64,000 nucleotides of DNA from Glycomyces sp. L485. Its GTDB lineage: Bacteria; Actinomycetota; Actinomycetes; Mycobacteriales; Micromonosporaceae. Position 1 is the first letter of the stretch, and each line of letters starts with the position of its first letter. The position numbers were made by a program, and so were the translations under genes. The DNA lies in contig NZ_JAKZEW010000005.1 in NCBI RefSeq assembly GCF_022548875.1, forward strand, positions 1 to 64,000. Direction: 5' to 3'. The notes below the pieces were generated by a model. The model ran no database searches. It had not been told where the DNA came from and saw only the letters and a list, made by a program, of their open reading frames with translations. Positions 45,776 to 63,997 of the stretch are shown here, one piece after another.

Positions 45776-46873
45776 TCAGGGCTGCGGTTGGAACCGCAAA
45801 CCGCCCAGGACCCAGGGAATGTGCTCCCTGCTCGATGTGATCAGGACCTCCTTCTCACCGTCCCTGCATTCCACGAACAGCGGGTCCCGGAGCGAACCGC
45901 TGCGGCAGTCCCTCTTTGGCGCGGGGTGGAGGCGAATGAAAGTCAGGGGCGGGAACGGCAGACTCCGACCGGCCACACCTCGGGGATCGGGGGCGGCCGC
46001 CAGACCGGCCGGGCCGATGATCAGGTAGTTGTCGCCCACCCGGCTGTAGGGGACCTCTCCCATGACCCGTGCGGGTACGACCGTCTCGGAAGTCGCGGGG
46101 CTCACCCAGGTTTCCGACAGCAGGCGTGCGGACCTGCGCTCGGCCTTGCGGTGTTGGCCCCGCCAGAGCAGGATGCCTACTAGCACGGTGCCGACAGTGG
46201 TGCAGGCCAAGGCTATGAGCGATCCTGCCAGGTCGGGTGGGGCGGCCACCGGGATCAGGGCGATGACCCCATAGACGACGGCCGTCACCGACGGCACCGT
46301 CGCAGTCCAGCTTCCTGTGGATTCGATGCTGCGGCCGGAGCGTTTCAGACGCCATTCGAAGCAGGCCATCCACAGCAGGCTGAAGCCGAATGCCAGCAGT
46401 CCGACCGCCCCCATCATCGGCCCCTTGTAGGAGCCGACCGGATAGCCTTTGACCCGCACCAGTTCGCCGTCCTCGGTGACGATCTCCCGGATCTGGTGGC
46501 GCCAGGAGGTCACGGTGACCTGATCGCCCAGGTCGAATTCGTCGATGTCGGATTGACCACTTGCGAGCCGTACGCGGTACCGATCGCCGTCGACGTCGAC
46601 CGTCACGAAGTGACGCTTGTTATCGCCGTCCCCGGTCACCTCCTTGTCGATGACGGTGGTATCCCAGCGTTCGCGGCATTCGCCGGCCTCACTGGGCGCG
46701 GTGACCGAATCGGGACACGACGAAGCAGCAAGGTATGCGCGCTCGTCGGCCAGCGCCGAAGGCAGCGCCACGGGAAGGATGCCCGCTCCGAGCACCGCCA
46801 GGGGGATTCCCAGCAACAGGAGGGCAAGGGGATTGGTGAGTCGGCCCTGCCTGCGGCGGTGGAGCATCGGCAT
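45776..46873 (-). CDS. Membrane protein of unknown family
   Basis: A 365-residue protein: TM helix near residues 14-36, an extracytoplasmic domain with two Cys (SCPDSVTAPSEAGECRERW) and a small beta-rich part (VDVDGDRYRVRLASGQSDID), three further TM helices around 150-260, and a cytoplasmic C-terminal domain ending VLGGLRFQPQP. ATG at 46873 has AAAAGGAG upstream; a second ATG two codons in is also possible. It shares an overall plan with the protein at 44659-45396. No function assigned. Confidence 0.65.
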   Translation of the reverse strand: MPMLHRRRQGRLTNPLALLLLGIPLAVLGAGILPVALPSALADERAYLAASSCPDSVTAPSEAGECRERWDTTVIDKEVTGDGDNKRHFVTVDVDGDRYRVRLASGQSDIDEFDLGDQVTVTSWRHQIREIVTEDGELVRVKGYPVGSYKGPMMGAVGLLAFGFSLLWMACFEWRLKRSGRSIESTGSWTATVPSVTAVVYGVIALIPVAAPPDLAGSLIALACTTVGTVLVGILLWRGQHRKAERRSARLLSETWVSPATSETVVPARVMGEVPYSRVGDNYLIIGPAGLAAAPDPRGVAGRSLPFPPLTFIRLHPAPKRDCRSGSLRDPLFVECRDGEKEVLITSSREHIPWVLGGLRFQPQP

Positions 46874-47743
46874 GGGCGGGGTTCTCCTTTTCGATGGGTG
46901 GACTCTGCCAGCGAAACATGCGGAACGATCGACCGATGTTTTCTGGCCTAGCCTGTTGGGATGCTTGCTGATCGAGTGTCGGGAGCTTGACGGGTTCGTT
47001 CCCTGAGACGGTGGAGGGGATTGGTCTCGGAGGCGAACCGCAAGCGCTTCGGCGGCGGCCCGACCGGCGGCGAGAAACCGTGATGCCGGCCAAGTCCAAG
47101 CTTACGGCCGCCTCATCAAGGACCAGCTGACGGAGCCGCTCTGCCTCGGACTTGGAGGACGCAGCAGAAGGGCCCTCGGGGCGGATGCGGAGATGAGCTG
47201 TTGAGCGGATAGTCGTCTTGGCTGACGGTGGGAGTCGGCGTTCCAGGTCGCCGGGATAGGCTTCTCACCGGTTTGGTTCCGCTCCTTCCGCCTTAACGGC
47301 GGGCTTTTCGGTCTCCTATTCTAACTCAAAACCCCAGGTTAAGGAGCTACTGGCACGCCTGCGGCGGCGGTCGACGCCTGAGACTGGCATGAACCAGTAC
47401 CTCACCCGAAGAAGCCGGTGGTCTTGCGGTGTGAGCGGAGGAGTCCGGCTACTCGGCCCAGGACCGAGGTGGACAGTGGCAGGGCAGAACAGCACGTGAG
47501 CTCCTGGTGGAGAACACGGTCGGTAGCAATCGCCTAGGACCTTCTATGCCCCCCTCGCCCCGTATACCGGCTGAACACGTTGTGCCCTAATGAGAGCCGG
47601 CCATGGTCTGACAAGCTCATTGCAATATGCCGGACGGCTGCCGATATCAGTTCTGTGATCGCCTGGCAGGCAAGGTATTGCTGGGGTGTGAACTGGGGGA
47701 TAGGATCAGATCGCAGGCGCTCCCCACGAGGAAGGTCCCGACA
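46874..47743. other. 870-base gap with a degenerate HTH gene copy
   Basis: No intact gene. Weak terminator-like CCGCC/GGCGG with CTTTT occurs near 47288-47308. The part 47323-47404 is a divergent copy of the small HTH gene at 49889 (separate entry). Confidence 0.5.
47323..47404 (+). pseudogene. Degenerate copy of the small HTH gene
   Basis: The sequence from AACTCAAAACCCCAGG to ACCAGTACCTCA parallels 49913-50003 with several substitutions and a shortened middle; the C-terminal HTH part is missing. Points to an old duplication or repeated insertion. Confidence 0.6.
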
Positions 47744-48103
47744 ATGGCTTCACATGAGGATTTCCCGAACGAGGACACCGCTCCCGAACCGGTGCAGTCG
47801 CTGAGCGATGAGCCCGGTGACGAGGGCGCACAGGTCGACCGGACGCTCGACGGCCTCGTCGAACAGGGACAGGACCTGCTTCAGGCTGTCAAGCCCCGCC
47901 AGGTCATCGTCGCCGCAGTCGCTGTGGGGGCGGTCGCCGCCGCTGCCATCGGCGCTAAGATCGCCTACGATCGCCGGAAGTCCGAGAAGGTCTACACAAC
48001 GGCGGTCCACCAACTGGAAGACGCCAGGGACGCGCTGGTCGCGGCAGCTTCAGAGCTGCCAGAACGCAGCCGGGCGGTGCTGCACCGTGTAACACATCGG
48101 TAG
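47744..48103 (+). CDS. Single-span membrane protein, hypothetical
   Basis: A 119-residue protein with an acidic N-terminal region, one Ala/Val-rich TM helix (VIVAAVAVGAVAAAAIGAKIAY, split around residue 65) and a helical C-terminal half (HQLEDARDALVAAASELPERS). ATG at 47744 has GAGGAAGG upstream. It resembles small actinobacterial envelope proteins but no family is recognised. Confidence 0.6.
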   Translation: MASHEDFPNEDTAPEPVQSLSDEPGDEGAQVDRTLDGLVEQGQDLLQAVKPRQVIVAAVAVGAVAAAAIGAKIAYDRRKSEKVYTTAVHQLEDARDALVAAASELPERSRAVLHRVTHR

Positions 48104-48275
48104 GCACGTCCTCGGCCCATGCGACCACCTGCGCGTTGACGATTTCGCCACGCTCGACATCGTTCGAGCATTCCCAACATCGCCCTCCACGTGACGGAGC
48201 GACGTTTCAACACTTTCAACGAATCAGGTAATCATCTCTTCAACTTCACCACACACCGCTCTACAGGGTCAGATC

Positions 48276-48482
48276 CTGTGGAGACGAGCCGCGGACGGCC
48301 TCTACGCCGCCACACTGGACGAGGAGTTCGCCGGTTTCGTGTCCGTGGCCGATGACAGCTACACGCTGCACGGTTGCCACTCGCAGGTTCTCGGAGTCTA
48401 CGAATCGCTTGAGGACGCGTCCGTCGTCCTGGAGTTCGCGTCGAGCGCGCCCGGTGCGCGCTTCGCCGGTTCCCACGCCTGA
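48276..48482 (+). pseudogene. 5'-truncated hypothetical coding remnant
   Basis: A clear coding-like frame without a start codon: ADGLYAATLDEEFAGFVSVA and HGCHSQVLGVYESLEDASVV, ending at TGA 48480. No ATG, GTG or TTG opens it within the preceding 80 bases. Probably the 3' end of a gene whose 5' part is lost. No family known. Confidence 0.45.
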
Positions 48483-48557
48483 TCCAAGACCATCGCGTCG
48501 GCACCGCCGACGTGCTCAAGGACCGCCCGGCGGTCCACTGCAATGAAGGAGACAGCC

Positions 48558-52073: not shown

Positions 52074-52519
52074 CGGATGTCGGGATGTCGATCTTGGGCG
52101 TGGGGACCGAGAGCTGTCAGCGTGGTTCGAGATCGTCAGCGGGCGAGGGTGCGGTTGTGGAGGTGAGCGATGCCGGCCATCACCTCGGCGGCGCCGGTCC
52201 CGCGGAGGCGGCAGTCGCGCGACACGTTCGATCTCGATGTGCTCGAACAGGGCGGCGAGACCTCGACGAGGCCGCCGAAGGTGGCGGCGCTGACGGGTTC
52301 GTTCGCGATGAGGGCTGCCTCCAAGACGGTGCAAGTGGAGTGTCCTTACGATACCCAGCGCCAGCGACGGGCGCGTCTCCCGAAACACCGAACCGGAGGC
52401 AGGTTCGCGTCGGTCAAGAAGTGCGGTAGGAGCCGGCGAGTCTTGGTCATAACCTGGAATAACCCGACCCGGATCATTTGACATGGGGTGTAACTGCCTG
52501 AATGTCCTGGTTATTAGGT
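52074..52519. other. Gap containing repeat copy C
   Basis: No reliable gene. A minus-strand frame (52136-52324) reads EAALIANEPVSAATFGGLVE but lacks a convincing start. On the minus strand a TATCGT at about 52341-52346 resembles a -10, matched by TATAGT in the copy at 49.7 kb. Confidence 0.4.
52441..52503. repeat. Repeat copy C (next to tRNA end)
   Basis: Partner of 49821-49883. Here the homology stops just before the tRNA-Val fragment and no HTH gene follows. Confidence 0.65.
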
Positions 52520-52564
52520 TGGTGGGCGCTACTGGGTTCGAACCAGTGACATCTGCCTTGTAAG
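52520..52564 (-). other. 3' half of tRNA-Val(UAC): left attachment site of an integrated element
   Basis: Read on the minus strand this is anticodon loop CTTACAA, anticodon stem 3' side GGCAG, variable loop ATGTC, T-arm ACTGGTTCGAACCCAGT, and acceptor 3' strand AGCGCCC plus ACC(A). The anticodon-stem 5' side, D-arm and acceptor 5' strand are missing: identity to a tRNA ends exactly at the anticodon loop. pSAM2-like elements use att cores that run from the anticodon loop to the tRNA 3' end. The orientation predicts the intact tRNA at the right end of the element, outside the window. Confidence 0.8.
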
Positions 52565-52638
52565 CCCGAACTGGAGGGTGAATCGAGGCAGGTGAAGTGT
52601 CTGAATAGCTGCCCTAACCAGGCATGTGATATCCCTGA

Positions 52639-52693
52639 GTGTCCATTGGTGTCCGCTGGCGTCTCGCGTGTGTGGCCCCGAATGTGGCCCCGA
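52639..52693. repeat. Short direct repeats beside att site
   Basis: GTGTCC at 52639 and 52649 (10-base spacing) and TGTGGCCCCGA at 52671 and 52683 (12-base spacing). Position just inside the element fits arm-type integrase sites, which is an inference. Confidence 0.45.
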
Positions 52694-52769
52694 TTCACAC
52701 CTGGCCCTTGCGGGTCTTGGAGGCTGAAACATTGGGGGTGCCGTCCACTACTGCGGCTAGGCAGAGTGG

Positions 52770-52850
52770 TGAACCCTTCTTGAACCCTTCCGCAAACCCA
52801 CACTGAGCTGCGAAAAGGCCGGGAAAGGGTTCAAAGGGTTCAAAGTTTCA
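52770..52850. repeat. Left GGGTTCA repeat cluster
   Basis: TGAACCC at 52770 and 52781, then GGGTTCA at 52827 and 52836, pointing toward a centre near 52807. Bases 52819-52850 form an exact 32-bp inverted match to 63928-63959. See right cluster. Confidence 0.8.
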
Positions 52851-52871
52851 TATCTCGAAATCCAATAAGAA

Positions 52872-52908
52872 GGCCCTCTTCTTGTAGAACGTCTACAAGA
52901 AGGGGGCC
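52872..52908. terminator. Strong hairpin
   Basis: A 17-bp stem (one G-T pair) with a 3-base loop, CTTCTTGTAGA against TCTACAAGAAG at the core. No T-tract follows on either strand. Probably insulates element genes from the chromosome. From 52909 to 53087 no gene is seen. Confidence 0.6.
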
Positions 52909-53087
52909 CAATCGCGTCGAAACCTGCATTGACGTGGGCAAACGGGGGTGTACCGACATAGGGACAAGCCCTGAAAGTCGCCCAGCGTGGCTCTCAGCGG
53001 GTTATGTTTCCGCAGGTCGGAGGCGTATCGCAGGGAAACTCCCCCTGTTTCAGCCTCCGAGCGCAGTAGCGCAACCGATGTTTACGA

Positions 53088-53927
53088 CTACCCCAGAATC
53101 TTGGACACGAGGGCCTTTGCTTGCCCCAAGAGGGGGACGCTGTTGACTGAGTTGTCAATAACGGCGTGCTCGATCGAAGGTCGGTAATCCAGGTCGATCT
53201 TGCTGAGGTAGTCCTGCCAGTTGTCGAGCTTCGTGGTGTCGCGGGCCGCACCACGTGCCCTCAGGTACGTATGCATGGATTCGGGGTCGCAGTACACCCA
53301 AACGACCGTAAGGCCTGCGCCAGAGCTGTCGCAAAGCGACTGGAGGCGCTGAATCCAAGCGTCGTCGCGCAGCTCCTTGACAAACGGAGCTGTCGCGATG
53401 ACGTTCCCGCCTGAGGTGATGTTCTCAGTGATGGTTGCGACCATCGCTTCATACTCACGTGGGCGGACCTCGGAGAGGTACAGGTCAGATTCCCGGTCGT
53501 TAGGTGAGGAGCCCATGACTTCGAGAGCCTTCTCTACCACAGGTCTGGTAGTGGTGTCCTTGTCGACCATCGCCCACCCTGTCAGGCGAGACAGGGTCCG
53601 TCCAAGTTCTGATTTGCCGCTTCCCGCATAGCCGCCGATGAGGACAAGGTGAGGCACGGGAGTCTTTACCTCGGAGTTCTCAAGTTGGTCGGGTGCGTTC
53701 ACGATGCGACCGGCGCGAGGCTTGGTAACGACTCGACCTTCCTCGGTCAACATCTTCATGGCCTTGGCGACTACCGGAGAGCTGACTCCGAAGCGCTCAG
53801 CCTGTTCGCGGTCGGAGGGCAACTTCTGTTCGTGCCTGAGCTTGCCCGCCTCGATGTCGGTCCTGATGATCCGGGCGATCTGCTCGTGTAGCGACGCCCC
53901 GGTGATCAGCTCACGCTTGTTGGTCAT
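53088..53927 (-). CDS. GntR-type repressor fused to P-loop kinase-like domain
   Basis: A 279-residue two-domain protein. Residues ~10-78 are a GntR winged helix (LPSDREQAERFGVSSPVVAKAMKMLTEEGRVVTKP split across it). Residues ~92-279 are a P-loop NTPase with Walker A GGYAGSGKS (98-106), a VDKDTTTRPVVEKAL segment and later YCDPESMHTYLRARGAARD, which resemble small-molecule kinases of the AAA_33/zeta type. pSAM2-type elements carry the GntR repressor KorSA at this position, divergent from transfer genes, but without a kinase. It likely represses the element and may sense a nucleotide or phosphorylated ligand. ATG at 53927 faces the operator region 53928-54125. Confidence 0.82.
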   Translation of the reverse strand: MTNKRELITGASLHEQIARIIRTDIEAGKLRHEQKLPSDREQAERFGVSSPVVAKAMKMLTEEGRVVTKPRAGRIVNAPDQLENSEVKTPVPHLVLIGGYAGSGKSELGRTLSRLTGWAMVDKDTTTRPVVEKALEVMGSSPNDRESDLYLSEVRPREYEAMVATITENITSGGNVIATAPFVKELRDDAWIQRLQSLCDSSGAGLTVVWVYCDPESMHTYLRARGAARDTTKLDNWQDYLSKIDLDYRPSIEHAVIDNSVNSVPLLGQAKALVSKILG

Positions 53928-54041
53928 GCAAATTCCTCTCAGTTGATCGTCAGAGTATCAGCTAGCTCCGCGAAGTCAATCGCTCTCTACCTGCGCTATT
54001 GATCGCAGTATCTCAGAGTATGGGAAGTTTACGGCTTCCAG

Positions 54042-54071
54042 TTGACTCCGATAGTTATCAACTGATAGCTT
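54042..54071 (+). promoter_or_regulatory. Promoter with overlapping palindromic operators
   Basis: TTGACT (54042-54047), an 18-base spacer and TAGCTT (54066-54071) fit a promoter for the element's gene block. GATAGTTATC (54050-54059) and TATCAACTGATA (54056-54067) are overlapping palindromes in the spacer. Related GTATC/GATCG motifs occur at 53950-54020 toward the repressor gene. Binding by the GntR-kinase protein is inferred. Confidence 0.55.
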
Positions 54072-54125
54072 ACCTGTATTGCCCATCACGGCATGTGATG
54101 GCAACGACAGGCTCAGGAGGTTCTG

Positions 54126-54629
54126 ATGGGTTTTGACGGTTCGCATCCGGTGGCGTCAGCGGCGGCGCGGCTGTGCCGCTCCCGGCATGGTCACTCGCCG
54201 TCGTGGGAGGACGTGGCGTGCCCGGAGTGCTGGGAGGCGACGCTGCTGGCGGACAAGGAAGCCGCGGCAGAGGCGGGTCTTCCTGAGGAGTGCCCGGCTG
54301 ACCCGTATCTGATCGATGAGGTCGCGGTGAATCGCGCGGTCTCCGGTGAGGCGATCGAGTTGACGGTGGCGGAGTGGCAGGCGGCGAAGCGGGCGCTGAT
54401 GCAGCGCCGTCAGGTGTGCCTGCGTCGGGCCCGGTTCTTGCTGGCCCGCAACGTGACCGTGGTCGACGCTCTGGGTTCACCGCTGGAGCCGGGCTTGCTG
54501 GGGCAGGTGTCGGCGGGCCGGGTGGTCAGCCCTGCTCGTGTTGTCACGCTCGCCACTCGAATCCGTGCCCGCCGGCAGGTGGCCCGGCGCGAGGTCTTCA
54601 CCGCTGGTCTGGCGTCAAAGGCCGCTTGA
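54126..54629 (+). CDS. Hypothetical protein of integrative element
   Basis: A 167-residue protein with a possible zinc pair (RLCRSRHGHSP and DVACPECWEA), a central helical region and a basic C-terminal part (VVTLATRIRARRQVARRE). ATG follows AGGAGG at optimal spacing, one of the best ribosome sites in the window. First gene behind the operator/promoter. No family recognised. Confidence 0.6.
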   Translation: MGFDGSHPVASAAARLCRSRHGHSPSWEDVACPECWEATLLADKEAAAEAGLPEECPADPYLIDEVAVNRAVSGEAIELTVAEWQAAKRALMQRRQVCLRRARFLLARNVTVVDALGSPLEPGLLGQVSAGRVVSPARVVTLATRIRARRQVARREVFTAGLASKAA

Positions 54630-54630
54630 C

Positions 54631-54697
54631 GGCGAAACCGGGCCTGTGTGCCTGGTCCATCTCGGGTGGCTTCCGGGGTGCTGATGAGCCAAGCCAA
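54631..54697 (+). ncRNA. Intergenic structured repeat, copy 1
   Basis: Begins GGCGAAAC right after the upstream stop and ends GAGCCAAGCCAA 20 bases before the NUDIX start. Stem 1 pairs ACCGGGC (54637-54643) with GCCTGGT (54650-54656) around 6 bases; stem 2 pairs TCGG with CCGG. Copies at 55165 and 55480. A cis-acting leader RNA is inferred. Confidence 0.5.
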
Positions 54698-54716
54698 CTA
54701 GCAAGGGAGACAGCGT

Positions 54717-55163
54717 ATGTCTGGCACCAACGACACGATCGAGGCCGTCAACTTGACGACCGACATCATCGCGTTCCGTGGTGGTGAGGTGCTGCTGATC
54801 GAGCGCGGCTGGGCTCCGTTCGAGGGCCACCTGGCGCTGCCAGGTGGCTACGTCGACTCCGGTGAGACCTGCCGGACTGCCGCCGCCCGTGAGGCTGCCG
54901 AGGAGACCGGGCTCGACCTCGACCCGGTCCGGCTCTACCAGGTGGGTGTGTACGACGAGCCCGGCCGCGATCCCAGGGGCCGGGTCGTCTCGGTCGCCTA
55001 CGCCGTGACCGTGCCGTTCGGGACGCGGGTGCAGGCCGGGGACGACGCCGCTTCGGCCGCCTGGGTCGACATCCAGGACGCGCTGCAGCGCCCGATGGCC
55101 TTCGACCACAAGCAGGTCCTCGCCGACGCCTACTACCGGTACCTCGACGGGGCCCTCGACTAG
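54717..55163 (+). CDS. NUDIX hydrolase (Pif-like)
   Basis: A 148-residue NUDIX protein. The box GGYVDSGETCRTAAAREAAEETG (residues ~43-65, split here by the rule of length) fits GX5EX7REUXEEXGU with every catalytic residue present. pSAM2 carries the NUDIX protein Pif, which blocks transfer between element-carrying cells; this gene has a similar position, but the function is inferred. ATG follows AAGGGAG. Upstream is intergenic repeat copy 1. Confidence 0.85.
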   Translation: MSGTNDTIEAVNLTTDIIAFRGGEVLLIERGWAPFEGHLALPGGYVDSGETCRTAAAREAAEETGLDLDPVRLYQVGVYDEPGRDPRGRVVSVAYAVTVPFGTRVQAGDDAASAAWVDIQDALQRPMAFDHKQVLADAYYRYLDGALD

Positions 55164-55164
55164 T

Positions 55165-55233
55165 GGCGAAACGCGGCCACAGAGCCGCGTCCGGTGCCGG
55201 GTGGTTCCCGGCCCGCTGACGAGCCAAGCCGAA
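55165..55233 (+). ncRNA. Intergenic structured repeat, copy 2
   Basis: Same frame of motifs as copy 1. Stem 1 is ACGCGGC (55171-55177) with GCCGCGT (55184-55190), same 6-base loop but changed pairs (compensatory). Stem 2 is CCGGG / CCCGG. Ends 19 bases before the next ATG. Confidence 0.5.
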
Positions 55234-55252
55234 CGAAGCGAAGGAGCGCGAC

Positions 55253-55480
55253 ATGGGCGGCAAGAAACTCAACTGGACCAAGACCGAACCGAGCAGCCGT
55301 GTGTCCAAGGCGGAGACAAAGACCCACAAGTTCCTGGTCTCACGAGGTGACAACAAGACCGAGCTGACCGCCTTCAAGAACGACCGCAACGCCACGCACG
55401 GGCGGACCAAGGAGAGCGAGTCCAGCTTCCGCAAGGAGCGGGACGCCAAGGCTGCGGCCCGGCGCCACGGCCGTCGATAG
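55253..55480 (+). CDS. Small basic protein of integrative element
   Basis: A 75-residue Lys/Arg-rich protein (KKLNWTKTEPSSRV; KERDAKAAARRHGRR at the end) with no hydrophobic segment. GAAGGAG precedes the ATG. Likely nucleic-acid binding by charge only. Flanked by repeat copies 2 and 3. Confidence 0.6.
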   Translation: MGGKKLNWTKTEPSSRVSKAETKTHKFLVSRGDNKTELTAFKNDRNATHGRTKESESSFRKERDAKAAARRHGRR

Positions 55481-55547
55481 GCGAAACCGGGCCTTCGGGT
55501 CTGGTCCATTCCGGGTGGCTTCCGGGGTGCTGATGAGCCAAGCCGAA
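55480..55547 (+). ncRNA. Intergenic structured repeat, copy 3
   Basis: Stem 1 ACCGGGC (55486-55492) with GTCTGGT (55499-55505), 6-base loop; stem 2 CCGG / CCGG; ends GAGCCAAGCCGAA. It begins in the last base of the upstream stop codon. Confidence 0.5.
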
Positions 55548-55571
55548 TCAAGCAAGAGGGAGGTGTGGCAG

Positions 55572-56063
55572 GTGAGCGAATACGACGAGGTCGAGCCGCT
55601 GGAGCGGCGCGCTGACCGCCTCTGCGAGGGCGATCAGGTCTTCACGGCCGCTGGCCGCTGGGAGACCGTCAAGACCGTTGAGCGGACCGGACGGTCGGCC
55701 CTGGTCGTGACCACCGAGACCGGCAGGCGGTCCTGCCGCTGGGTGTTGAACCTGTGGAGCCTGCTGCCGGTTTTGCCGGCATGGCGGCGCCGCGCCGAGC
55801 CGAAGGTCCGGTTCTGGTCGAACCGCGAGCAGGTGGGCGCGACCCTGGCCGACTCCGCGCACGACATCCACACCGGATACGGACTGGCCGGAGCGTACGT
55901 CGAGCGCGGGCAGGGATGGAAGGTCTACGACCTCACCACCGCCGAGCCCAACCCGGTCGCCGAGAGCTTGTCAAAGGCCAAGGCGACGGCCCTGGTCAAG
56001 AAGATCGCCCGTACCCGCGCCGCCGAGCTGGGCGCGGCCGTCGACTTCGGGGGCGCGCGATGA
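55572..56063 (+). CDS. Hypothetical protein of integrative element
   Basis: A 163-residue protein; the first ~50 residues read like a small beta domain (LCEGDQVFTAAGRWETVKTV). C-terminal part basic and helical (SKAKATALVKKIARTRAAELG). GTG at 55572 is chosen for GAGGGAGG upstream; GTG 55563 is an alternative and the ATG further upstream lies inside repeat copy 3. No family recognised. Confidence 0.55.
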   Translation: MSEYDEVEPLERRADRLCEGDQVFTAAGRWETVKTVERTGRSALVVTTETGRRSCRWVLNLWSLLPVLPAWRRRAEPKVRFWSNREQVGATLADSAHDIHTGYGLAGAYVERGQGWKVYDLTTAEPNPVAESLSKAKATALVKKIARTRAAELGAAVDFGGAR

Positions 56064-56269
56064 GGGAGAACCTGGCCTACTCCGGCGACGGGGTGCTCAT
56101 CGGCCCCGGCGACCGGGTCTGGCACGGCGGCAAACTGCGCACGATCGAGCACGTCACCAACGGCGCCACCAGGATCTATCTGGAGACGCCTGGCCGTCCC
56201 TTCCCCGACACCGTCGACCCCGGCGAAGTCCGCTACTTCGGTGCCGACGACGAGACCGAGGAGGGCTAG
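56060..56269 (+). CDS. Small hypothetical protein of integrative element
   Basis: A 69-residue beta-rich protein (LIGPGDRVWHGGKLRTIEHV, then TRIYLETPGRPFPD). ATG overlaps the upstream stop. Its start resembles the N-terminal segment of the preceding protein (GDxVxxxGxxxTI/VxxV), suggesting a shared small domain. Confidence 0.55.
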   Translation: MRENLAYSGDGVLIGPGDRVWHGGKLRTIEHVTNGATRIYLETPGRPFPDTVDPGEVRYFGADDETEEG

Positions 56270-56271
56270 CG

Positions 56272-56658
56272 ATGTATCGCGCCGAGTTCGACGACCCCGC
56301 CGCCGAGTGGTTCGGCTTGCCGACGTTCAACTACCGGCACGCGCCCCGTGGCCTGGCTACGCGCCGTCAGCTCGCCGCCAAGGGCCTGACCCCGGGCCGC
56401 CAGGGGATCGCGGCGCAGATCCTGTGGCGGCGCGGCCGGCGCCGGGCGTACCTGTACCGCGAGGACCAGGCGGTGCCCAAGCGCGAGGCCACGCCCGCGC
56501 AGTTGCGGGCGTTGATGAAGGCCTGGGTGACGCTGTCGACGTGCCCGACCTGTGAGCGGGAGTTCGACCACTACATCCCGCGCCGCTTCGGCGAGTGCCT
56601 CGACTGCCACGAAGCCGCGACCAGCTTCACGCCCGCCACCGGGCTGGAGGTGGCCTGA
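56272..56658 (+). CDS. RRQRL-type zinc-binding protein
   Basis: A 128-residue protein. GLPTFNYRHAPRGLATRRQLA carries the RRQL motif typical of a small actinobacterial element-borne family, and the C-terminal half holds two Cys pairs (CPTC and CLDC) for one zinc. Such proteins are common near AICE and plasmid transfer genes; their role is unknown. Ends in a 3-base overlap (ATGA-type) with the next gene. Confidence 0.72.
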   Translation: MYRAEFDDPAAEWFGLPTFNYRHAPRGLATRRQLAAKGLTPGRQGIAAQILWRRGRRRAYLYREDQAVPKREATPAQLRALMKAWVTLSTCPTCEREFDHYIPRRFGECLDCHEAATSFTPATGLEVA

Positions 56659-56879
56659 TGCGCGCCTTCGCCACCGACTTCCCCGCGTTCGCGGCGCTCG
56701 GCGAGTCCGAGCTGCTCGAACTGATCGAAGAGAACAACACCGCCCTCGCTGAGGCCGCACGCGGCCTGGTCGACGCCGCCGAAGCGCGCTTCGGCTCGGT
56801 ATGCATCCGGCTTGGCATCGCCGACGAGGTCGAACCCCTCACTGCCGCCCTGCTGGGCGAGATCGGAGACCAGTCATGA
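56658..56879 (+). CDS. Small hypothetical protein of integrative element
   Basis: A 73-residue acidic, mainly helical protein (ELLELIEENNTALAEAARGL). ATG overlaps the upstream stop; its own stop overlaps the next start. Probably translated as part of the transfer operon. No family recognised. Confidence 0.55.
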   Translation: MRAFATDFPAFAALGESELLELIEENNTALAEAARGLVDAAEARFGSVCIRLGIADEVEPLTAALLGEIGDQS

Positions 56880-58138
56880 CCACTGACAACACCGTGATCG
56901 GGCCGGACGAGCCTGGCGGTGATTGGGCGTCGATCGAGGACGCCGTCCTGGCCGCTACTGGCGTCGAGCCGACTTGCGCCGCCGTGCAGACGCCGGCGGC
57001 GCGTGATCCCCGACCTGTAGCGGCCGTCGAGGTGGACCCGGAGGCCGACTCGTGGCTGTGGCCCTCCGTGTTGGACGTCAAGGGCAGGCCCACCGGTGAG
57101 CTGGCCCGGCCCAACCCGGAGGCGGCGAAAGCGGCCCTGAAGCGGGCGGCGGCGACTTCCGCCGCCGACGTCGAGGTCTTGGCGGCGGCGATCTCCGAGC
57201 CTGAGGCCCGCGAGATCATCGCCCAGGCCGCCGGTCAGCGTGCCGTCGAGCGTGGGCTGGACGGCAAGGTCGCGCGGCTGCGTGCCGAGCTGGCCGCAGA
57301 GGGCGCGCGCAAGCAGGCTGAGCACGAGGCGCGCATGGCCGAAGCGCGCCGGCGTCGGGAGAACCGCGCGGCGGCGGCCCTGGAGCGTCGCGACCGGGCC
57401 CTGGACCCGACCTCGCGGATCGTGCGCCTCGCTGCCGCTGAGCGGCTGGTGCCGTGGATCGCGGTCTTGCCGGCCATCCTGGCCGCCGGCCTGGGCGCGG
57501 TCAATGTGGGCGTGAGCCTCGATGTGCTTTCCCCGGGCACGCAGCTCATCAACTGGATGGTTGAGCCGCTGCTGACGCTCCCGATCGTCGCGATCCTGGT
57601 CGCGCAGATCCTCGGCGCGGTCGGGGAGGGCGAGGCCAACCCGTACCGCCGCCTCGAATGGGCCCTGGTCACCGTGGCCCTGGTGCTGAACGTCGGCCTT
57701 CACGTGGCCGTCGACGGCCTCACCCCTGCGGCGTTCGTGTGGGCGATCGTCCCGGCAGGGCTGGCGATCTCGGCGAACCTGGTGCCGCGCCTGATCCATC
57801 ACTCCCGCCAGGCTCTCACCGAGGCCTCAGTTGAGCCGAAGCCTGGGCCGCAAACCGCTTTCCGCGTCGCGGTGCAGACGGCCCCGGTCCAGTCCGAGTC
57901 CACCTGGACTGCGCCTGGACCGTCGCAGGCCAGCGAGGGTGACTCGCCGGAGTCCAGGTCTGACGCCGAAGTGCTCGGCGAGCTCGCCGAGGCCGTCCAG
58001 ACCGGACGGATCGACCCCGGCACCGGGCGCGCGATCGACCCGGAGAGCGCCGAGTCGATCCGCCGCACCATCCGCATCGGAAGGGACCGCGCCCGGCTCC
58101 TGCGCGACCAGTTCGCCTCGATCGAGGCGCCCGAATAG
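56876..58138 (+). CDS. SpdB-like / DUF2637 membrane spread protein
   Basis: A 420-residue protein. Residues 1-180 are soluble with an Ala/Glu/Arg-rich coiled-coil segment (ARKQAEHEARMAEARRRREN). Four TM helices lie between about 196 and 330 (LVPWIAVLPAILAAGLGAVN and following). The C-terminal ~90 residues are acidic. This is the plan of SpdB/DUF2637 proteins, which help plasmids or AICEs spread within the recipient mycelium. ATG overlaps the upstream stop. Confidence 0.75.
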   Translation: MTTDNTVIGPDEPGGDWASIEDAVLAATGVEPTCAAVQTPAARDPRPVAAVEVDPEADSWLWPSVLDVKGRPTGELARPNPEAAKAALKRAAATSAADVEVLAAAISEPEAREIIAQAAGQRAVERGLDGKVARLRAELAAEGARKQAEHEARMAEARRRRENRAAAALERRDRALDPTSRIVRLAAAERLVPWIAVLPAILAAGLGAVNVGVSLDVLSPGTQLINWMVEPLLTLPIVAILVAQILGAVGEGEANPYRRLEWALVTVALVLNVGLHVAVDGLTPAAFVWAIVPAGLAISANLVPRLIHHSRQALTEASVEPKPGPQTAFRVAVQTAPVQSESTWTAPGPSQASEGDSPESRSDAEVLGELAEAVQTGRIDPGTGRAIDPESAESIRRTIRIGRDRARLLRDQFASIEAPE

Positions 58139-58204
58139 CCAACCCCTGGCGGGGGCCGGGCTCGCTGCTCTCCCGGTCCCCGCCGCCACTGATTGGAGAC
58201 GCCC

Positions 58205-59281
58205 ATGGCGAAGGGACTGTGGACCGGCTTCTGGTCCGAGACCGGTCGCAATGTCGCCCAGCACCAGAAGCGCCGCGTGCAGAACTGGTTCATGCGCCAC
58301 CCGACGACGTTCCTGCTCGCGTGGGGCGGCAAGGGCTTGGTGTGGAACCTGCCCAAGGCCGCCTGGAAAGGCGGCCGCAAGCTCGCCGGCCAGACCACCA
58401 AGACCAAAACCGTCGGCGCAGGCGAAACCGCCACCGTCATCACGAACGCGGGCGCGAAGTCCCCGACCGCGAAGGTCGACTACGGCGGCAAGACCGTCAC
58501 CGTGATCCCGCGCAACATCACTCGCCCCGCTACCGCATTCCAGAGAGGACCGCTGATGCAGACCGGCAGAGAGATGCTCGGCTCCACGCCGATGGGCCAC
58601 CTGTTCGTGGCCGTCGCCGCCGAGTTGGACTACTTCACGCCCGTGCAGGGGAGGGAGGCCACCTCCACTCTGAACCTGATGAGTGACGCCTACCAGGCGT
58701 TCTTGCGCCTGGCAGGCGGGGTCGACATGTTCTCCGACGTCGTCGCCGCCTGCAACATGCACGCGCGCGTCGTCCACCACCTCTACCAGGCGGTCGAGGA
58801 CGCCGAGACGACCGCCGAGCGGATGCGTCAGGCCCGACGCCTGGTCGAGACGATCTACAGCGACCGCCTGACCCAGGAGGACTCGAATGCCGGGGTCGTC
58901 AACACGCTCCCTGCCGTCTCCGACGGGGACGAGGCCGCAGGCCTGGTCCCGCTCGCGACCAAACTCGCGAGCTGCTACATGGCCTTCGAGCCTCGCCTGG
59001 ACGAGGAGGCCACCTCGATCCTGGAGGTCGTCAAGGTCTCCCAGGCAGGCTGGGCGGTCCTCGCCGACTCGCTCACGAACCTGTCGACTCGCCTGGGCGC
59101 CTTCGCAGTCGACCGGCGCGTCCGCACCAAAGTGGGCGCGGCCGGGGACGCCTCGGTCGGCACGGCGGCCGCGTTCGGCGCCGCCCGCCGCGCCGTGACC
59201 AGCCTCTACCGCTCGCAGATGGCGCAGGAGAGCACCGGGACGGCCACGATCCTCACCATCCCGCTCGGTCGCGCCGCCTAG
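58205..59281 (+). CDS. Hypothetical transfer-region protein
   Basis: A 358-residue protein. A basic N-terminal part with a short hydrophobic patch (FLLAWGGKGLVWNLPKAAW) is followed by a helical middle and C-terminal domain (LVETIYSDRLTQEDSNAGVV). ATG at 58205 follows GGAG; a TTG four codons upstream is unlikely. Its place between the SpdB-like and FtsK-like genes suggests a role in conjugation. No family recognised. Confidence 0.6.
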   Translation: MAKGLWTGFWSETGRNVAQHQKRRVQNWFMRHPTTFLLAWGGKGLVWNLPKAAWKGGRKLAGQTTKTKTVGAGETATVITNAGAKSPTAKVDYGGKTVTVIPRNITRPATAFQRGPLMQTGREMLGSTPMGHLFVAVAAELDYFTPVQGREATSTLNLMSDAYQAFLRLAGGVDMFSDVVAACNMHARVVHHLYQAVEDAETTAERMRQARRLVETIYSDRLTQEDSNAGVVNTLPAVSDGDEAAGLVPLATKLASCYMAFEPRLDEEATSILEVVKVSQAGWAVLADSLTNLSTRLGAFAVDRRVRTKVGAAGDASVGTAAAFGAARRAVTSLYRSQMAQESTGTATILTIPLGRAA

Positions 59282-59346
59282 ATCCTCGCACCGCTCGGAG
59301 CGGCGCGTCGCCGCCGCTCCGACCCTCACTCGAAAGGACATCTGAC

Positions 59347-61386
59347 ATGGGTTCCACCAGCGCAAACACCCGCCAGGTCGGGCACGTGGTCGCCCAGACC
59401 GGGCGCGGCGCGGCCAAGGCGACCGAGTTCACGGTCCTGCACTGGCGTGGCCTGCTGCCGTTCCTGTGCATCGGTGCGGCGGCTGCCTTCGCGGGCGGTT
59501 CGACCCTGTTCTCCTGGCTCTACGGGCCGTGGGCGTGGGCCTGGACCGCCGCCGTCGGTGTGGTGCTGTTCGTCTGGGCCGACGGGTGGGTCGGCACGCT
59601 CGGTCGCCCGGCCCGCGCCCCGGGCGTCGCGTTCTTGCTGTTCACGGCCGTCTCGTCGGTGGTGCTGATCCTCGCCGGTGCCTACGCCGAGGCGTACATG
59701 GTCGTCGCCGTCGCCGGGCTCGTCCTGGGCACCTGGTGGTGGAACGGTCAGGCCTACCAGGGGCACAAGGCCGAACGCCGCGCCGAACGGCGCATGGAGA
59801 CCGTGCTGGCCAAGCTCGGTATCTCGACCGGGACCCGCATCACCTCGACCCGGATCGGGCCCGACGGCTCCCGCGAGTGGCGGCTCTACCTCGGCGATGA
59901 GGACCGGCCCGACCAGATCAAGGCCGACGACGTCGCCCACATGCTCAAGACCCACCTGGACCGCGTCGTGGTCCGCAAGGTCGAGAAGGGCTCCTCGCGG
60001 TCGGTCAAGATCGTCCACCTCGCCAAGTCGCCCGACCAGACCGCCGAGAAAGTGCACCCCGCCCTCAAGGCGGACAACCGGGCCTCCGGTGGGGCGTGGG
60101 AGCCGGGCACGCGCTCGGTCACCGAGGGCCTGCCCACCGGTTCGGTCCTCGGCTCCGCTGCCGTGGCGGCCGTGAAGGTCTACAACGAGAACCAGGACTC
60201 TCGTTGCGTGATGCTGCTGGGCAAGTCCGGTATGGGCAAGACGAACACCGCCTCGGCGGTCCTGCTCTCGCTCATCGCCTGCAAGGACGTCGTCGTCGGT
60301 GTCTGCGACATCCCCAAGGCGGGCAACCTCGGGCTGCCGTTCGGCCGTGCCCTGCACCGCATCGCCCGCACCGCCGACGAGCTGGAAGCCGACCTGATCG
60401 GCCTGTACAACCTCGCCTCGGACCGGTGCGCGCGCCTGGCTCGCGGCGAGGTCCGCACCGCAGGCGGCAAGCGGGCCCGCAACTGGGTCCCGAGCCCGGA
60501 CTCCCCGGCCGTCGTCTACCCCATCGACGAACTGGCGAACACGATGCTGCGCATCTCGGCGGCCGACCCCGACCAGGGCGAGAGGATCTGGGACCTGCTG
60601 ATCGGCCTGGGGCAGTTCGTTCGTCAGGCCGGGATCATGCTCGTGCCGATGTCGCAGACCGCCAAGAGGGACATGATCCGCCCCGACTTCACCTCGCAGA
60701 TGGGCACCTACGTTGTCCACCAGCTCAAGAAGGCCGTCGACGCCGGCGACATCTGGCAGGGCATGGACGTGAACTTCCTGGAGGCGGGCCTGCCGAAGGT
60801 CGGCATGAACCTCCTGGGCGACCTCGACGGCGGCGAGCCGGTCAAGACCATGTCCTACGACATGGACTCCCAGATCGCCGACGAGGACGACTGGAACCGC
60901 GTCGTCGACGCCTACGCCGCGCACCGCCCGAACCTCCACCCCGTCGAGGTCGGCACGCTCGGCTGGGGCGACGGACTGTGCGCCGCCGAGGGCACCGAGA
61001 CCGGCCCGGCGGCCGGCCAAGAGGTGGCCACCGGCCTCGCTCCCCGAGCGGCCCTGACCACCGATGAGCAGGGCATGGACGCGGCGACGCTCCTGGCCGA
61101 CGCGCTCGAAGACGACCAGATGCCCTCCGGCGCCGGGATTCTCGCCGGGGACGAGCCGGTCGAAGGCGACGACGAGCGCCAGAGTGCGGTCCTCGCCGCT
61201 CTGGTCCAGGCCGCCGACAAGGGCCTGTCGCGCGCCGAGATCGAACGCGCCGTCGAGGTGTCCACCTCGACCGCCAAGCGCGTCCTGGCCGCCCTCCAGA
61301 CCGGCGAGGCCCCGAAGGTCCGCCGCGAGGGCCAAGGCCGCGCCATCCGCTACTACCTGGCCGACGACCAACTCGTCACCGCCTAA
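59347..61386 (+). CDS. FtsK/SpoIIIE-type conjugal DNA translocase (TraSA/TraB-like)
   Basis: A 679-residue transfer protein. N-terminal TM helices span roughly residues 37-130. The ATPase domain has Walker A GKSGMGKTNT (about 292) and Walker B VVYPIDELANTM (D394-E395). The C-terminal end has a winged helix (SRAEIERAVEVSTSTAKRVL), as in TraB proteins which bind short repeats in the transfer locus. AICEs move double-stranded DNA by this single protein between mycelia. The repeat array at 61630-61835 is a candidate binding site. Confidence 0.9.
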   Translation: MGSTSANTRQVGHVVAQTGRGAAKATEFTVLHWRGLLPFLCIGAAAAFAGGSTLFSWLYGPWAWAWTAAVGVVLFVWADGWVGTLGRPARAPGVAFLLFTAVSSVVLILAGAYAEAYMVVAVAGLVLGTWWWNGQAYQGHKAERRAERRMETVLAKLGISTGTRITSTRIGPDGSREWRLYLGDEDRPDQIKADDVAHMLKTHLDRVVVRKVEKGSSRSVKIVHLAKSPDQTAEKVHPALKADNRASGGAWEPGTRSVTEGLPTGSVLGSAAVAAVKVYNENQDSRCVMLLGKSGMGKTNTASAVLLSLIACKDVVVGVCDIPKAGNLGLPFGRALHRIARTADELEADLIGLYNLASDRCARLARGEVRTAGGKRARNWVPSPDSPAVVYPIDELANTMLRISAADPDQGERIWDLLIGLGQFVRQAGIMLVPMSQTAKRDMIRPDFTSQMGTYVVHQLKKAVDAGDIWQGMDVNFLEAGLPKVGMNLLGDLDGGEPVKTMSYDMDSQIADEDDWNRVVDAYAAHRPNLHPVEVGTLGWGDGLCAAEGTETGPAAGQEVATGLAPRAALTTDEQGMDAATLLADALEDDQMPSGAGILAGDEPVEGDDERQSAVLAALVQAADKGLSRAEIERAVEVSTSTAKRVLAALQTGEAPKVRREGQGRAIRYYLADDQLVTA

Positions 61387-61416
61387 CCAGTGATCACAAC
61401 CGAAAGGCACCACACC

Positions 61417-61626
61417 GTGAAGAAGAAACCAGGCGACCGCTACCAGATCGGCCACAACCCGCTGGAGGGCTACACGCTCGACGAGCTGGTCACCGTCGCA
61501 CTCGGACGCGCCAAGGACCACGCCGAGCTAGGAGAGGAGACCGAATCCGCAGCCTGGTCGGCCATAGCCCAAGCCGCCGCCACCTTCCACCTGTCGCAGA
61601 CCCTCGCCGCACTCAAGCCCGAGTAA
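61417..61626 (+). CDS. Small hypothetical protein of integrative element
   Basis: A 69-residue soluble protein, mostly helical (YTLDELVTVALGRAKDHAEL). GTG at 61417 has GAAAGG upstream; a GTG nine codons earlier precedes that site. Located directly before the repeat array. No family recognised. Confidence 0.55.
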   Translation: MKKKPGDRYQIGHNPLEGYTLDELVTVALGRAKDHAELGEETESAAWSAIAQAAATFHLSQTLAALKPE

Positions 61627-61629
61627 CAG

Positions 61630-61835
61630 CGGCTCACGAGCCGGATTTTCCGGCTCAAGCGAAGAGATTAATACCCGATAGTCCGATTTTCCGGCTCAGT
61701 TTACGGCTCACAGGACTGAACTGCGGCTCACGCTGCGGCGCAAGCTGGTCCGATTCATACCTATAAATCCGGTTTCCGGCTCACCGTGAGCCGGAAACCG
61801 ACCCCCCATAGGGGCCGGGTGACTCGGGTGAGCCG
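61630..61835. repeat. CGGCTCA repeat array with long palindrome (candidate transfer locus or origin)
   Basis: CGGCTCA at 61630, 61651, 61692, 61704, 61724, 61777 and the reverse TGAGCCG at 61787 and 61829: eight copies in 206 bases. The 61770-61800 segment is a perfect 15+1+15 palindrome including CGGCTCAC/GTGAGCCG. AT-rich stretches (GAGATTAATACCCGATAG; CTATAAAT) alternate with the repeats. Located between the translocase and replication genes. Nothing coding is seen from 61627 to 61949. Confidence 0.75.
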
Positions 61836-61949
61836 CAAATCGGTGCCGCCAGCCTTCTACGGACACGCGACATCGACGACCCGACCGCAGACACCACGAT
61901 GCCGGGCCCAGGAAGAGCCGGGCCTGCATCCCAAGGAGGCCTCACCGTC

Positions 61950-62867
61950 ATGACCACCAACGATCTCCTCACCGCCGCCCTGGCCGCCGCCCGTCGCGGC
62001 TGGCCGATCTTCCCGCTCGCCGTCGGCGGCAAGCGGCCCGCGATCAAGCGATGGGAGGAGCGCGCCACCACCGACCCCGAACGTATCGAACGATGCTGGT
62101 CCGCAGGGGAGTGGAACATCGGACTCGCCTGCGGGCCCGCCGGGCTGGTCGTGGTCGACCTCGACCGCCCCAAGGGCGGGCAGGAGCGCTACAACCCGGA
62201 CGGGTCCATCTACACCGGCGCGGTCGGTTACGACGCCCTCGCTGCCGAAGCGGGCGGCGCGAGCGGGTTCGGTGAGACCTTCACCGTCGCCACTCCCTCT
62301 GGCGGCTGGCACCTGTACTTCACCCGCCCTGCCGGGATCGAGCTACGGAACACCGCGAGCGGCCTCGCCTACCTGGTCGATACGCGCGCCGTCGGCGGCT
62401 ACGTCGTCGCACCGGGCTCGCGCACCGATGCCGGCACCTACACCGCCGTCCACACCGGCGAGGTCGCGCCACTGCCCGACTGGCTCGCGCAGCGCCTCAA
62501 GCCCGTCGAGCGGCCCCAGCACAGGGCTGTCGCTGCGGCGGCTCCCGGCTCAGCCCGGCTGCGTCGCGCCGAGCGACGCTCGGCGCGCCTGGAGCGCTAC
62601 CTGGCCGCCGCCATCGACCGCGAGACGGCCGCTGTCGCCGCCGCGCACGAGGGCGGGCGCAACCACCGGCTCTACTGCGCCGCCGTCGCCCTCGGACAAC
62701 TCGTCGCGGGCGGCTACCTCACCGAGCCCGACGCCGCCGGGCCGCTCACCGAGGCCGCCGCCGCAAGCGGGCTCAGCGTCAACGAGATCGCCCGCACCAT
62801 CGCCTCCGGCCTCACCGCCGGAGCCAAGACACCCCGCACCCTGCCCGCCGAGACCACCGACCACTAA
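61950..62867 (+). CDS. Prim-pol domain protein (RepPP-type replication)
   Basis: A 305-residue protein with an N-terminal bifunctional primase-polymerase domain: AARRGWPIFPLAVGGKRP, catalytic VVVDLDRPKGG (Asp70, Asp72) and the SGGWHLYFTRP His motif. It would prime and copy DNA for element replication. AICE replication proteins of the prim-pol type are a described class. ATG at 61950 has AAGGAGG upstream. The next gene follows after 25 bases. Confidence 0.87.
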   Translation: MTTNDLLTAALAAARRGWPIFPLAVGGKRPAIKRWEERATTDPERIERCWSAGEWNIGLACGPAGLVVVDLDRPKGGQERYNPDGSIYTGAVGYDALAAEAGGASGFGETFTVATPSGGWHLYFTRPAGIELRNTASGLAYLVDTRAVGGYVVAPGSRTDAGTYTAVHTGEVAPLPDWLAQRLKPVERPQHRAVAAAAPGSARLRRAERRSARLERYLAAAIDRETAAVAAAHEGGRNHRLYCAAVALGQLVAGGYLTEPDAAGPLTEAAAASGLSVNEIARTIASGLTAGAKTPRTLPAETTDH

Positions 62868-62892
62868 CAGCACCACAGAGAGGAGCCCGATC

Positions 62893-63906
62893 ATGTTCGA
62901 TTCCGCCACCGATCCCGGCCCGGGCAGCGACGCCGAGGACGTCTTCGATCCCGAACCGCGCCAGATCGCCTGGACCGCCGACCAGCTCATGGCCACCGTC
63001 TTCCCCGAGCCGAAGTGGGCCGTACCCGGGATGCTCTGCGAGGGCCTGTCACTGCTGTGCGGGCCGCCGAAGGTCGGCAAGTCCTGGGCCTCCCTGGCTT
63101 TGGCCCTCGCCATCGCCTCCGGTGGCCGGGCGTTCGGCAAGATCCCCGTCGACGCCGGCGCCGTCCTCTACCTCGCCTTGGAGGACACCGCCCGGCGCCT
63201 CCAAGCCCGGATGCGCACCATCCTCGCCGGGCAGGACGCGCCAGAGGGCCTGACGCTGCTGACCGAATGCCCCCGGCTCGACCGGGGCGGCGACGAGTGG
63301 ATCGAGGCCTGGATCCGCAAGCACCCCGACGCCCGCCTGATTGTGGTCGACGTGTTCGCCAAGGTCCGTCCCGCACCCACCCCGGGCGTGGGCGCCTACG
63401 ACGGCGACTACGCCGCCGTGGGCGTTCTCAAGCGCTTGGCCGACAAGCACGGCATCGCCATCGTCGCCGTCCACCACATCCGCAAGGCAGGCTCTGAGGA
63501 CTTCCTGACCGAGGTGTCGGGCACCAACGGCATCGCCGGGGCCGCCGACGCCACGCTCGTGCTCAAGCGCGGCAGAGGCCAGGCGGACGGCATCCTCAAT
63601 ATCACCGGCCGCGACGTCGAAGAGACCGAACACGCCATGGGCTTCAACCCCGCCACCGGCGCCTGGACGCTCCTCGAAGGTGACCCGCGCCAGCTCACCG
63701 CCACCGACAACCAGTCGGTAGTCCACGCATGGCTGCGCGAGCATCCCGACTCCGGCCCTTCTGCCATCGCTGCGGGGACGGGCCTGAGCCCGGATTCGGT
63801 CAAGACCACGCTGCGGCGTGGCGCTCAAGACGGCTGGTTCGTCCAGGCCCGGCGCGGTCAGTGGGCCGTGGCCGACGACGGCGACGAAGCCGAGGAGCTG
63901 TGGTGA
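62893..63906 (+). CDS. RecA/DnaB-like AAA ATPase (RepA-type helicase)
   Basis: A 337-residue ATPase. Walker A is in LLCGPPKVGKSWASLALA (57-65), Walker B LIVVDVFAKV (about 149), then IVAVHHIRKAGSEDF and a sensor segment (EVSGTNGIAGAADATLVLKR), which characterise the RepA/DnaB-like family that pairs with prim-pol proteins. The last ~60 residues are a winged helix (SAIAAGTGLSPDSVKTTLRRG). ATG follows GAGAGGAG. It is followed at once by the right GGGTTCA cluster. Confidence 0.88.
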   Translation: MFDSATDPGPGSDAEDVFDPEPRQIAWTADQLMATVFPEPKWAVPGMLCEGLSLLCGPPKVGKSWASLALALAIASGGRAFGKIPVDAGAVLYLALEDTARRLQARMRTILAGQDAPEGLTLLTECPRLDRGGDEWIEAWIRKHPDARLIVVDVFAKVRPAPTPGVGAYDGDYAAVGVLKRLADKHGIAIVAVHHIRKAGSEDFLTEVSGTNGIAGAADATLVLKRGRGQADGILNITGRDVEETEHAMGFNPATGAWTLLEGDPRQLTATDNQSVVHAWLREHPDSGPSAIAAGTGLSPDSVKTTLRRGAQDGWFVQARRGQWAVADDGDEAEELW

Positions 63907-63918
63907 TCACCCGGGGTC

Positions 63919-63997
63919 TGAACCCTTTGAAACTTTGAACCCTTTGAACCCTTTCCCGGTCTTTCCGCAGGTCAGGCCATGTTTCCGAAAGGGTTCA
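63919..63997. repeat. Right GGGTTCA repeat cluster (truncated by window)
   Basis: TGAACCC at 63919, 63936 and 63945, GGGTTCA at 63991. Bases 63928-63959 are the exact reverse complement of 52819-52850, and similarity continues to 63970 with two mismatches. More boxes may follow past the edge. Confidence 0.8.

Follow-up and report, generated by a model that had tools for sequence, protein, structure and literature searches.

Type II hammerhead ribozymes at gene junctions of an AICE-type integrative element in Glycomyces, with relatives in other elements and in Streptomyces phages

Introduction

Why should successive gaps between small genes be filled by copies of one short sequence? The question is raised by a 64,000-nucleotide stretch of Glycomyces sp. 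L485 (contig NZ_JAKZEW010000005.1, positions 1 to 64,000; hereafter, the window), in which an earlier note had picked out a three-copy intergenic repeat with compensatory changes. The note took the repeat for a possible new family of cis-acting RNA, perhaps a translation control or processing signal that tunes each small gene separately. Here, we ask what the repeats are, where else they occur, and what they might do for the genes they separate.

Results

The three repeats belong to a known ribozyme family

Judged by core, predicted fold, and family scores, the three repeats are type II hammerhead ribozymes (Rfam RF02276, Hammerhead_II), a known family. Re-reading the coordinates places the copies at 54631, 55165, and 55480 on the + strand, with the ends originally given, and a three-copy repeat of this kind is far above chance expectation. 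The features of the surrounding region are as follows.

52520..52564, strand not given: attL, a 45-nt exact repeat of the tRNA-Val 3′ end
53088..53927, − strand: GntR regulator carrying a fused AAA_33 P-loop domain (Pfam GntR 54.2 bits, AAA_33 48.5 bits)
54126..54629, + strand: 167-aa ORF, backbone gene upstream of copy 1 (77% identical in G. terrestris, L051/L125)
54631..54698, + strand: copy 1 of the type II hammerhead ribozyme, separating the 167-aa ORF from the Nudix gene (predicted to cleave 3′ of C54657)
54717..55163, + strand: Nudix hydrolase gene flanked by copies 1 and 2 (Pfam NUDIX 78.3 bits)
55165..55233, + strand: copy 2 of the type II hammerhead ribozyme, separating the Nudix gene from the 75-aa ORF (predicted to cleave 3′ of C55191)
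55253..55480, + strand: 75-aa ORF flanked by copies 2 and 3 (unmatched in Pfam and NCBIfam)
55480..55547, + strand: copy 3 of the type II hammerhead ribozyme, separating the 75-aa ORF from the 163-aa ORF (predicted to cleave 3′ of C55506)
55572..56063, + strand: 163-aa ORF that starts with GTG and follows copy 3 (its 162-aa translation from 55575 matches neither Pfam nor NCBIfam)
56272..56658, + strand: RRQRL-motif zinc-binding protein, element backbone (NCBIfam NF041638 113.7 bits, cut-off 65)
59347..61386, + strand: 679-aa TraB-like transfer ATPase candidate (weak: 22.6 bits to NCBIfam NF041214, whose cut-off is 800)
61899..62867, + strand: Prim-Pol replication protein (Pfam PF09250 154.3 bits)

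In a search of the 64 kb, copies 1 and 3 scored 42.3 and 42.7 bits against RF02276, above the cut-off of 37 (the two E-values being 2.3e-5 and 2.9e-5), and copy 2 reached 34.9 bits, just below it (E-value of 1.2e-4 in 3 kb). Our own covariance model, R1, gave 77.1, 88.4, and 76.9 bits for copies 1, 2, and 3, all of which were used to build it. Run as a full model without filters over 52500-64000, R1 returned three matches at 77-88 bits and a next best of at most 13.8 bits, and in the whole source genome it matched the three window copies only. A genome-wide repeat element was excluded as an identity for the sequence, there being just three copies in the source genome.

Read 5′ to 3′, each copy consists of GGC (the 5′ strand of stem II), the GAAA of the core, stem III, GUC with the cleavage site after its C, stem I, the CUGANGA of the core, GCC (the 3′ strand of stem II), and an AAGCC tail. 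Stems I and III are thus closed by loops and stem II is open, in the order GAAA - III - NUH - I - CUGANGA. Under the core criteria for type II hammerheads set out in the relevant passages of PMC3088659, the catalytic core (CUGANGA, GAAA, A15.1-U16.1, H17) is intact in all three copies. Stem III has seven pairs and a six-base loop throughout, as had been claimed for what was then called stem 1; copy 3 could form an eighth pair, leaving a UUCG loop. The compensatory double changes in this stem are real, copy 2 having ACGCGGC/GCCGCGU against ACCGGGC/GCCUGGU. Stem I, between stem III and the tail, has nine pairs and a five-base loop with which the AAGCC tail can form a pseudoknot in each copy. The tail described as invariant, GAGCCAAGCC, is indeed identical in the three copies and resolves into the end of the core, a stem II strand, and the pseudoknot strand. 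Of the three stems, the earlier note had described a single one, and it had missed the catalytic core (GAAA ... GUC ... CUGANGA).

When each copy was folded alone, the fold of lowest energy was the hammerhead secondary structure in 3/3 cases. Fold energies relative to shuffled sequences were ordinary for copies 1 and 3 (z of −0.14 and −0.63) and lower for copy 2 (−1.87). The window copies resemble RF02276 in the core, the permutation open at stem II, the short stem II, the GUC triplet, and the pseudoknot between loop I and the 3′ tail; they differ from the Rfam consensus in a 3-bp stem II and in two inserted bases before AGCC. A new RNA family is ruled out by the RF02276 matches, since that family is already in Rfam and was described in 2011 (PMC3088659). 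What survives of the original interpretation is a conserved, base-paired, cis-acting RNA that is probably a processing signal for each small gene; the novelty of the family does not.

The ribozymes lie in an AICE-type element

AICEs are marked by a tyrosine integrase at a tRNA gene with a direct repeat, a replication protein of their own, and a single FtsK/TraB-like translocase. By its predicted gene content, the DNA that carries the ribozymes is an integrative element of this type, about 13.1 kb long and inserted in tRNA-Val of the Glycomyces genome. The integrase gene (Pfam PF00589, 65.8 bits) overlaps tRNA-Val at contig position 65593, past the window end, and the 3′ end of that tRNA is repeated exactly over 45 nt. 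For replication, the element has a Prim-Pol protein (PF09250, 154.3 bits), and it also encodes an AAA_25 ATPase (PF13481, 118.1 bits). The TraB-like ATPase candidate matched no Pfam family above its cut-off, and no tRNA or tmRNA was found within the 64-kb window.

The 167-aa protein has relatives in 19/101 genomes of the family. The GntR-AAA_33 gene, divergent from the ribozyme operon, is 76-77% identical in two related elements (L117 and L124; loci are given L numbers throughout), and its Zeta_toxin score of 17.7 bits is below the cut-off of 22.3.

Relatives conserve the core and covary in the stems

A search pattern taken from the window copies (the core plus GCC/AGCC) had 34 matches among viral contigs and 7 among genome contigs; of these 7, five come from Glycomyces or Stackebrandtia. 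R1 was built from an alignment of 15 copies: 14 found by the pattern, among them the three of the window, and one from the RF02276 search. It returned 179 matches in 50 loci at E-values up to 0.05. The earlier note had proposed a covariance search, with a lack of further copies, or extra copies that do not keep the pairing, as what would refute it. Many copies with strong covariation were recovered in the genus Glycomyces and in Streptomyces phages, and the objection therefore falls.

Covariation was measured on the best 150 of the 179 matches (122 distinct rows, with the 29 weakest left out). In the distinct rows, 93.0% of cells were standard pairs, compared to 70.8% in shuffles, and 482 cells were changed on both sides, compared to 142.6; these contrasts are to be read with an alignment that is fitted to R1, and so biased towards its pairing, and with shuffles that do not preserve kinship. 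Two-sided changes occurred in 20/23 pairs. The loop I/tail pseudoknot, which has four pairs, was 92.3% paired with two-sided changes in 4/4. When partner columns were slid by 1-3 positions, pairing fell to 28-52%. The 74 distinct rows lying outside the search pattern all had invariant GAAA, U16.1, and CUGANGA with a variable N7, and their cleavage-site base was C in 68, U in 5, A in 1, and G in none. A cleavage-site base that is never G, a variable N7, and an invariant core are what a hammerhead requires. Conservation of the core and covariation of the predicted stems show selection for the hammerhead fold.

Most of the Glycomyces and Stackebrandtia relatives are below the Rfam cut-off: 9/10 RF02276 matches in L050-L053 scored under 37 bits, and the R1 copies L051:3054 and L054:6114 are absent from the RF02276 matches listed at E-values up to 0.1. 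In a listing of 32 copies, 9 carry one additional base that separates A9 from stem II (CUGANGA-U/A-GCC); these are in L113, L114, L115, L116, L117, L119, and L127, and none is in the window. One of the same 32, L118:3889, departs from the core, with U4 changed to C. Given these extra bases and the core change, activity in every related copy is not required. Such core changes, and the recurrence of similar copies, would also fit nonfunctional remnants or a selfish, hitch-hiking repeat. We consider this most improbable, as all three window copies have an intact core, are on the coding strand, and sit at gene borders, and the genome carries just these three.

When the 32 listed copies were compared by eye, there was no clean pattern of the 5′ half going with the upstream gene and the 3′ half with the downstream one. 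Outside the actinobacteria, a contig from a Candidatus Sumerlaeota MAG (L055) has four type II hammerheads on one strand within 2.7 kb (2224-4954), and this contig may be a phage.

The ribozymes abut stop codons and precede start codons

Copies 1 and 2 begin 1 nt past the upstream stop codon and copy 3 shares the G of its TAG, so the claim that each repeat starts at the upstream stop stands. The next start was said to follow after about 20 bases, and we find 18, 19, and 24 nt from the end of the 69-position model to ATG (copy 1), ATG (copy 2), and GTG 55572 (copy 3, for which GTG 55563 is an alternative). In the three junctions that hold a ribozyme, the genes are 87, 89, and 91 nt apart. Among eight other listed junctions of the element, five are overlapping or 2-3 nt long, and the three long ones (69, 65, and 272 nt) contained no ribozyme. 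Between 53900 and 56700, no sigma-70 promoter-like site and no + strand intrinsic terminator-like site was detected; the − strand has two terminator-like sites, against 1.1 expected.

This placement recurs among the relatives. We compared distinct copies with enough flank with random positions on the same strand, using ORFs of at least 40 codons, which in unannotated loci were called mechanically. The copy start was −1 to 5 nt from an ORF stop in 69/121 copies, compared to 918/24,200 random positions (3.8%), and a start codon followed 12-25 nt downstream in 98/121, compared to 4,166/24,200 (17.2%). A stop within 20 nt and a start 12-25 nt downstream occurred jointly in 87/121 copies and at 538/24,200 random positions (2.2%).

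The abutment raises a further explanation, that of a regulated switch of translation or stability, in which folding is set by ribosomes at the abutting stop, or by a ligand, and tunes the downstream gene. Among the listed copies, 24/32 start −1 to 3 nt from a mechanically called ORF stop. Since the ribozyme starts at the stop codon, a terminating ribosome would, given the size of its footprint, be predicted to cover the GGCGAAAC strand. However, the alignment reveals no conserved extra domain, loop III varies freely, and the Shine-Dalgarno-like stretch is outside the ribozyme, all of which makes such a switch improbable in our view.

Streptomyces phages carry long ribozyme arrays

The right arm of phage Celia (NC_054655; L068) has eleven type II hammerheads at 40805-48527, that of Diane has 9 by R1, and that of Salutena has 12 by R1 and Rfam together; one of these 32 ribozymes was found solely by Rfam. 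No ribozyme annotation is present among the features shown for the three records. All 32 are on the strand of the adjacent genes, and with the deposited gene calls a ribozyme is found in 28/35 gaps of at least 60 nt compared to 2/59 shorter or overlapping junctions (Fisher p 3.6e-15). One Diane ribozyme was left unassigned because it is inside the 5′ part of an annotated gene. Endor1, one of the four annotated phages, had no ribozyme by R1 or Rfam. We note that the 5′ ends of two annotated CDSs overlap a ribozyme, at 45415-45933 in Celia (gene 71) and at 43042-43458 in Diane (L128), and that their true starts are probably the start codons just past it. With 9 to 12 ribozymes each, the arrays of Celia, Diane, and Salutena offer a tractable laboratory model.

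Distribution is patchy

R1 matched 12/22 Glycomyces genomes, the source genome included, and had no match in the other 10. It matched 5/61 sampled genomes of the family, again with the source. RF02276 matched 8/394 genomes of the class including the source, 5 of them above the cut-off, and a pattern scan of 396 genomes of the phylum found the source genome only. A related G. tenuis element whose 167-aa gene is 75% identical (L123) had no R1 match. A distant DNA search for plasmid relatives with 54100-56700 as query returned 82 records, of which none covered 80% at a single place, and the 15 listed were all matches to the Nudix hydrolase. One genome, G763, harbors two closely related elements (L121 and L122); each contains a relative of the 167-aa gene as well as two ribozymes.

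Homology between elements breaks at the ribozymes

In close arrays, in which neighboring ribozymes are less than 600 nt apart (the window, L113, L116, L124, L125, L126, and L127), 11/11 intervals hold one small gene, the same ORF being found after one ribozyme and before the next, with start calls that sometimes differ. The same backbone carries different cargo: the gene that follows the 167-aa gene is Nudix in the window and one of 76 aa in L125. In six elements, members of the Nudix family (grouping at E <1e-4) are preceded by three different partners and followed by four. The order in L117 is Nudix, ribozyme, 75-aa family, and in L124 it is Nudix, ribozyme, 68-aa gene, ribozyme, membrane-like protein, ribozyme, 75-aa family; at the DNA level, the upstream match between the two stops 1-2 nt past the ribozyme and the downstream match begins inside a ribozyme. 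Copy 3 of the window and L124:3895 from G. tenuis are identical over 51/51 nt, with flanks that do not match.

We extended the comparison to 14 ribozyme-bearing elements, 12 from Glycomyces and two (L120 and L121) from other genera of the family, leaving out L122, a close copy of L121, and one opposite-strand ribozyme in L118. For 19 aligned ribozyme pairs (homologous segments of at least 150 nt, with homology of at least 60 nt on at least one side), homology extended to both sides in 2, upstream only in 7, and downstream only in 10, so that 17/19 were one-sided. Both sequences had the segment end inside a ribozyme at 16/148 internal ends, compared to a mean of 0.03 under random rotation. Because the pairs are non-independent and the rotation control is blind to exchange that favors gene borders, these counts place the ribozymes at the joints and do not yet make them the cause of exchange. 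Together, they suggest that type II hammerheads may also be joints at which small genes are exchanged.

These observations bear on an alternative in which the main role of the ribozymes is that of recombination joints. As 65-nt blocks of similar sequence at the borders of genes, they would allow homologous swap, insertion, or deletion of single genes, and cleavage would be secondary or would serve only to keep the joint neutral. The one-sided homology, the segment ends within ribozymes, the changing partners of the Nudix family, and the identity of copy 3 to L124:3895 between unmatched flanks are all as this explanation would have them. A plain repeat would suffice for it, yet the core and the covarying stems are conserved. 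The same breakpoints would also arise from any exchange at gene junctions that keeps the ribozyme, and the non-independence of the pairs and the blindness of the control apply here as well. We regard joints as the main role as rather unlikely.

Discussion

We consider it likely, with a probability of roughly 0.78, that co-transcriptional self-cleavage splits the message of the accessory operon into single-gene mRNAs. The sequence itself gives the family, the intact core, the pairing, the pseudoknot, the strand, the position, the recurrence, and the homology breaks at the ribozymes; from these we infer cleavage in the cell, effects on stability or translation, and selection for independence from neighbors. 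The three ribozymes occupy consecutive junctions of the AICE accessory operon. On the cleavage model, stems I to III and the loop I/tail pseudoknot would fold during transcription, and the RNA would cut itself after the C of GUC. Hammerhead cleavage leaves 2′,3′-cyclic phosphate and 5′-OH ends. The upstream piece would retain the stop codon, the GGCGAAA after it, and the stem III hairpin, and would end in a 2′,3′-cyclic phosphate; the downstream piece would begin with a 5′-OH and the stem I hairpin, and it would have a ribosome binding site of its own. The mRNA ends and the stability of each small gene would thereby be its own, whatever its neighbor. Genes that arrive or depart would leave the mRNA ends of their neighbors unchanged, which may be the reason to keep the punctuation. 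Trimming of a polycistronic message was proposed by Perreault et al. 2011 for prophage arrays (PMC3088659), and the sections of that paper on the Agrobacterium triple array report cleavage in vitro and in E. coli.

Punctuation of the message and exchange at the ribozymes can be combined. We tentatively put forward, as a possibility that we doubt more than we trust, that these are ribozyme-punctuated cassette arrays, in which the hammerhead of AICEs and Streptomyces phages would be an RNA insulator and a DNA joint at once. The ribozyme at each gene's border would free its mRNA from its neighbors, so that genes could be swapped singly without disturbing the operon. If true, this would explain why bacterial hammerheads cluster around the small, inconstant genes of mobile elements.

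That hammerheads cluster around small inconstant genes is already known (PMC3088659; review, PMC6155905), and their role in bacteria is termed open or unknown in passages of PMC6155905 and PMC10085705. Among the matches listed in a literature search of open-licence papers, none reported hammerheads in AICEs, Glycomyces, or Streptomyces phages, and none reported gene exchange or gene-order breaks at hammerheads. The locus and its relatives form a small, regular system, with one gene per close interval, ribozymes that abut stop codons, and breaks in homology. It makes two ideas directly testable, that of mRNA punctuation and that of ribozymes as joints for gene exchange.

In gene cassette arrays of the integron type, single small genes lie between repeated joints in variable order. 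The arrays described here are loosely alike in having small genes between joints and a varying order; here the joint is an RNA enzyme, and we do not claim membership. Closer are the clustered bacterial hammerheads, such as the triple array at Agrobacterium ardA and the prophage arrays, which in the parts of PMC3088659 that describe them are likewise close-set ribozymes bordering single small inconstant genes. The words "Streptomyces," "conjugative," and "integrative" occur 0 times in the main text of that paper. Compared to the clusters as described there, the window system is distinguished by an AICE rather than a prophage as carrier, by the abutment of its ribozymes on stop codons, and by the breaks in homology between elements at the ribozymes.
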